In this document: one piece after another, positions 22,580 through 22,688 of the stretch | How the letters are laid out: each line of letters starts with the position of its first letter | Position numbering within the stretch: position 1 is the stretch's first letter | Source of the DNA: Saccoglossus kowalevskii | Lineage: Eukaryota; Hemichordata; Enteropneusta; Harrimaniidae | Assembly: GCF_000003605.2 (NCBI RefSeq) | Contig: NW_003145290.1 | Location: 257,418 to 293,585 of the forward strand | Length of the DNA: 36,168 nt | Direction: 5' to 3' | Position numbers and translations under genes: made by a program | Notes under the pieces: generated by a model | What the model was told of the DNA's origin: nothing | What the model saw: only the letters and a program-made list of their open reading frames with translations | The model's database searches: none

Positions 22580-22688
22580 TAAATATAATCGTCTGGAAAT
22601 AGTGATGAACTCAGAATTAAACCAGCTTAATTTGTTTTCTTTTTGTTTAGACAAACAGTCATACTATCTAGAGATAATAAACAATATT
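22580..22688 (-). pseudogene. Inverted, internally deleted copy of the receptor TM1 exon
   Basis: Read on the minus strand, 22688-22650 matches 4371-4409 at 35 of 39 positions, covering the splice acceptor CTCTAG and the first codons of the TM1 exon. It is followed at once by 22648-22580, which matches 4546-4614 at 57 of 69 positions, covering the last codons, the donor site and the start of the next intron. The 136 bp in between, containing most of TM1, are missing. The donor GT has become TT. Weaker similarity continues to about 22470. The neighbouring (TTTA)n tract corresponds to the (AAAT)n beside the real exon. It cannot be expressed as a receptor exon. Confidence 0.85.

Follow-up and report, generated by a model that had tools for sequence, protein, structure and literature searches.

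An inverted and decayed copy of a receptor exon downstream of a GPR158/GPR179-like gene in Saccoglossus kowalevskii

Introduction

Unprocessed pseudogene fragments (pseudo-exons) are a recognised category, in which splice sites and introns are copied along with the coding sequence and disabling changes are present. The sequence described in this article shares these features and differs in that it holds one exon only.

Partial and inverted DNA-mediated gene duplicates have been surveyed in Caenorhabditis elegans, yeast and human. In these surveys, the median duplication span of C. elegans gene duplicates is 1.4 kb and newborn duplicates are often adjacent and inverted, while 77 of the 143 human same-chromosome duplicate pairs lie in inverse orientation (PMC2728529, PMC4546093). 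As in those organisms, a gene piece was here copied in inverted orientation on the same chromosome; however, the surveys concern annotated gene pairs, whereas the present copy is a single, dead exon (PMC2728529, PMC4546093). Duplications of this sort have been modelled as products of template switching during replication, and the microhomology-mediated break-induced replication model names among its outcomes duplications that are discontinuous and interspersed with deletions and inverted duplications (PMC2621351). That model treats microhomology at the junctions as characteristic (PMC2621351), whereas at our locus the edges are a microsatellite and a faded intron and the junctions are unreadable.

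This article describes an inverted exon copy in a window of 36,168 nucleotides of the hemichordate Saccoglossus kowalevskii (contig NW_003145290.1, positions 257,418 to 293,585, forward strand); all coordinates below are counted from the first base of this window. The event belongs to a known kind, and the finding is correct but ordinary. It provides a clean example of a sub-gene piece copied backwards and then decaying, and shows that receptor-like sequence found close to a gene is not necessarily the trace of a paralog. A literature search returned no paper on this locus, from which absence in print is not claimed.

The source gene

The source exon (4392-4563, + strand; AG before, GTAAG after) belongs to a class C receptor of the GPR158/GPR179-like type, in which it codes for the Cys-rich stalk and TM1. 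The exon translation of 57 residues matches GPR158 and GPR179 chains, the best being GPR158 (phmmer, E 2.7e-8). When four receptor segments are translated and joined, the product matches 7tm_3 with E 1.2e-16, the gene thus showing both the class C 7TM domain and the Cys-rich stalk preceding TM1. The last coding exon lies at 8947-9285 (+), with a TAA stop at 9283-9285.

GPR158/GPR179-like receptors carry an extracellular Cache-type domain. About 15 kb 5' of the window lies an open frame with a match to PDB chain 3lic ('Sensor protein'; E 2.9e-9). We take this chain to be a Cache-type domain, as would suit a receptor of this class; at an E threshold of 0.01 the same frame matched none of the GPR158 chains. 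The frame may belong to the receptor gene of the window, from which it is separated by 14 kb of N. The 14,059 bases directly 5' of window base 1 are all N, and any receptor exons located there would be invisible. A second GPR158-like receptor gene occurs at C2886:318500-327500, on another contig, and is 41% identical to the receptor of the window in TM1, 32% in TM3-4 and 53% in TM5-6.

The inverted copy

A preliminary description made from the letters alone had reported that both edges of this exon recur in reverse orientation at 22580-22688, with 35/39 and 57/69 matches and with 136 bp of the middle missing. The recurrence was confirmed by BLAST of the window against itself and by base-by-base counting, which retained the same two blocks and the missing middle and slightly altered their edges and sizes. 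In the self-comparison, 4290-4410 matches 22770-22649 on the minus strand (95.9%, mostly tetranucleotide tract, E 4e-50) and 4545-4614 matches 22649-22580, also minus (82.9%, E 1e-13). Counted base by base and leaving out the tract, the left block extends over 4371-4407 (+), comprising the intron end, the acceptor and the first 16 exon bases, and agrees with the copy at 22652-22688 (-) in 34 of 37 positions (3 mismatches). The right block, at 4545-4614 (+), contains the last 19 exon bases, the donor and 51 intron bases, and agrees with 22580-22649 (-) in 58 of 70 (12 mismatches). Between the two blocks the copy holds 2 bases (TC, at 22650-22651, - strand) where the receptor has 137 (4408-4544), a net loss of 135. 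When 4371-4800 was aligned with the reverse complement of 22300-22690, the score was 70.5, whereas the highest score among 500 first-order random versions of the copy side was 49.25.

The adjacent tetranucleotide tract was copied as well, as the preliminary description had stated: a (TAAA)20.8 tract (4290-4372, +) lies 5' of the exon and forms the 5' edge of the copied piece, and a (TAAA)32 tract (22685-22812, -; TATT on the + strand) lies at the 5' edge of the copy. These are the only TAAA/TTTA tracts of at least 5 units in the window, and none of that length occurs in the 20 kb upstream as far as these are sequenced (14,059 of those 20,000 bases being N). Between the two tracts there are 83 bp of perfect complementarity.

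Because the splice junctions, intron bases and the upstream tract are all present in the copy, the duplication took place at the DNA level and not by retrotransposition, which upholds the earlier proposal on this point: the acceptor, the donor region and at least 72 intron bases were copied, 60 of the 72 aligned being identical between receptor and copy. A retrocopy, with introns absent and exons joined, was rejected, since intron sequence flanks the exon on both sides. With introns and splice junctions present together with disabling changes, the copy has the sequence features of an unprocessed (DNA-level) pseudogene fragment.

Decay of the copy

The copy retains the acceptor AG, and three disabling changes were identified: the first Tyr codon of the receptor exon, TAT, reads TAG; the donor GT reads TT (the preceding AAG being AAA); and 137 bp are lost. 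Read in the frame of the receptor, it begins stop-YDCLSKQKENK. That the copy lost its middle, and the receptor did not gain one, follows from the fact that GPR158 and the paralog from the same genome align through this stretch without gaps. The net loss of 135 bases preserves the frame, an outcome expected by chance once in three.

Divergence in the intron is about 17%, or about 0.19 substitutions per site. Mismatches between receptor and copy amount to 12 of 72 intron positions and 3 of 35 exon positions; this difference is not significant (Fisher p 0.38), although it lies in the direction to be expected if, within the exon, drift affects the dead copy alone.

An 8-bp direct repeat, ACTGTTTG, sought after the fact, occurs in the receptor at 4400-4407 and 4518-4525, the first unit running up to the left boundary of the deletion and the second lying within the lost part. 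Slippage or annealing between the two units would explain 118 of the 137 lost bases, so that a second small loss would be needed. In the window as a whole, an 8-mer recurs within the next 137 bases at 545 of 35,768 positions, and recurs with its start in the last 30 of those 137 at 34 of 35,350.

Extent of the copied piece

The copied piece spans at least 4290-4614 of the receptor and probably reaches from 4290 to about 4667, introns included, or about 380 bp. As judged from the alignment, the recognisable copy probably continues past 22580 as a gapped collinear trace to about 4667-4690 in the receptor and 22477-22465 in the copy, which consists of short stretches in order separated by insertions in the copy or losses in the receptor. 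It includes a probable further collinear intron stretch at 4620-4667 (+), shared with the copy across insertions, and a probable degraded far end of intron sequence at 22477-22570 (-).

Support for this extension depends on how gaps are charged. Under ordinary gap costs it is not significant, 14 of 300 random versions being as good for a short stretch and 199 of 300 for a longer one. Under a cheap gap-extension cost, picked after the alignment had been seen, it scores 29.9 against a best of 22.9, none of 4000 real window segments being as good. BLAST of the gene against the downstream sequence at standard costs placed 4639-4667 versus 22505-22477 third of 7 matches (86%, E 0.016); the top three are collinear and the other four have E values of 0.054 to 0.66.

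Past about 4690 of the receptor no similarity was found, and beyond the tract on the other side there is no common sequence (50 of 300 random versions as good). None of seven flanking comparisons stood out, four past the intron end and three past the tract, with 124 to 445 of 500 null segments being as good when the nulls were kept free of overlap with the query. The outer edges of the copy are a microsatellite on one side and a fading intron on the other, and the insertion junctions are unreadable.

Origin of the copy

The copy is likely to derive from a single, short, inverted and dispersed DNA-level duplication that later decayed with an internal deletion. A receptor piece of about 380 bp (the TAAA tract, the intron end, the TM1 exon and 50 to 100 bp of the intron that follows) would have been copied once, in inverted orientation, to a position on this contig 18 kb from the original. 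The most likely mechanism is template switching, or templated repair, in the course of break-induced replication, with one edge of the copy falling inside the TAAA tract. The copy would never have been a gene and, decaying neutrally, would have lost 137 bp of the exon core, probably aided by the ACTGTTTG repeat, gained a stop and lost its donor. The sequence itself shows the homology, its limits in this contig, the decay and the presence of the left block at two genome sites with up to 3 mismatches; we infer the single event, the repair mechanism, the neutrality and the order of these losses.

That a tract forms one edge points to the site of the switch, although the junction itself is unreadable. 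The (TAAA)n beside the exon might even have been causal, a break or stalled replication within it allowing pairing with an opposite (TTTA)n 18 kb away and so seeding the inverted copy, an idea that we regard as doubtful. If the tracts were causal, tract-flanked exon fossils would be a recurrent product in the genome and could be counted, and the locus would acquire wider value only if inverted exon copies edged by such tracts were counted across the genome.

The preliminary description had left a choice between the scar of an inverted duplication inside one locus and the remnant of a lost tandem paralog. The scar of a short inverted duplication is favoured, with a reservation as to 'inside one locus', since the copy sits about 13 kb past the stop codon of the receptor and is intergenic except in the case of a very long 3' UTR; for the lost paralog nothing that was found speaks specifically. 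According to that alternative, which we consider improbable, the copy would be all that remains of an inverted tandem paralog, complete or nearly so, from which the other exons were deleted. The intronic similarity does reflect a genuine DNA-level duplication of gene sequence, and the genome contains at least one other family member, but every other exon would have had to vanish without trace while the surviving intron diverged by only about 17%. A tblastn search with five receptor parts (TM2 excluded) over 9.5-36.2 kb gave nothing below E 0.1, and DNA comparison with the TM2 exon included revealed no inverted exon relic beyond the known pair; the contig stops with the window, 13.4 kb past the tract of the copy, and the 14,059 bases directly upstream of the window are N. 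The best downstream protein match, of TM3-4 at 22921-23010 (+; E 0.12), was taken as chance.

The existing family member likewise gives no support to a lost paralog, being only 41% identical in protein, without such a tract and without DNA resemblance to the copy. When the genome was queried with the TM1 protein, two places emerged among the best candidates scored, namely the receptor and this paralog (41% identical). As a source of the copy the paralog was rejected: in coding DNA it still resembles the source exon (90 bp, 64%, E 7e-7) and not the copy, and across its 9 kb no such TAAA tract was found and no DNA match to the copy better than E 0.43.

A dispersed repeat, either a transposon or a tract-associated element, might instead overlap both exon edges by chance, a reading to which we assign very little probability. 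Retroelement tails often abut (TAAA)n-like tracts, and both copies do adjoin one; yet the blocks hold receptor codons from a conserved domain, and the flanks of the copy (22380-22500 and 22811-22930) have no 8-mer in common, direct or inverted. Membership of the blocks in a high-copy transposon, the outcome that the preliminary description had named as fatal to its proposal, was checked for the left block only and was not seen. A pattern of 30 places (28 fixed and two free; 14 of intron, 16 of exon) was run with at most 3 mismatches through 572 Mb in 4830 contigs, the window lying at the end of its contig. It occurs at exactly two places, the receptor and the copy, and its reversed form, used as a control, at 0; such a pattern would not detect copies with a divergence above about 11%, or a repeat confined to the intron side. 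The dispersed-repeat reading is disfavoured on this left-block search alone, and no weight as to further copies is placed on two DNA-mode genome searches, each of which recovered the query alone and not its known partner. The left block had 0 matches in viral contigs, a scan uninformative for an animal genome.

That the inverted copy is functional, for instance as an antisense transcript or by pairing with the receptor transcript via the complementary tracts (83 bp perfect, with a further 107 bp at 86% outside the tracts), appears hardly credible on sequence grounds, since the coding part of the receptor ends at 9285, about 13 kb before the copy, the copy lacks a donor and is interrupted by a stop in the frame of the receptor, and the + strand open frames crossing it run through the tract and resemble chance. 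By its sequence, the copy is a neat but ordinary DNA scar without sign of function.

Other features of the window

Searches of the window with Rfam gave 0 matches at gathering scores and the tRNA search gave 0, and for ten of the 112 listed open frames compared with Pfam no match reached the cut-off. Several further repeats were observed. An inverted repeat at 12920-13509, with arms of about 130 bp (12920-13050 and 13381-13509) at 82% identity, resembles a short terminal-inverted-repeat element, and two direct copies of about 190 bp (28987-29171 and 31622-31817; 70% identity) possibly represent a dispersed repeat. Two shorter inverted pairs are present as well, one of 56 bp at 24437-24492 and 25673-25728 (86% identity, 1.2 kb apart) and the other of 48 bp at 1946-1993 and 2558-2605 (81% identity).
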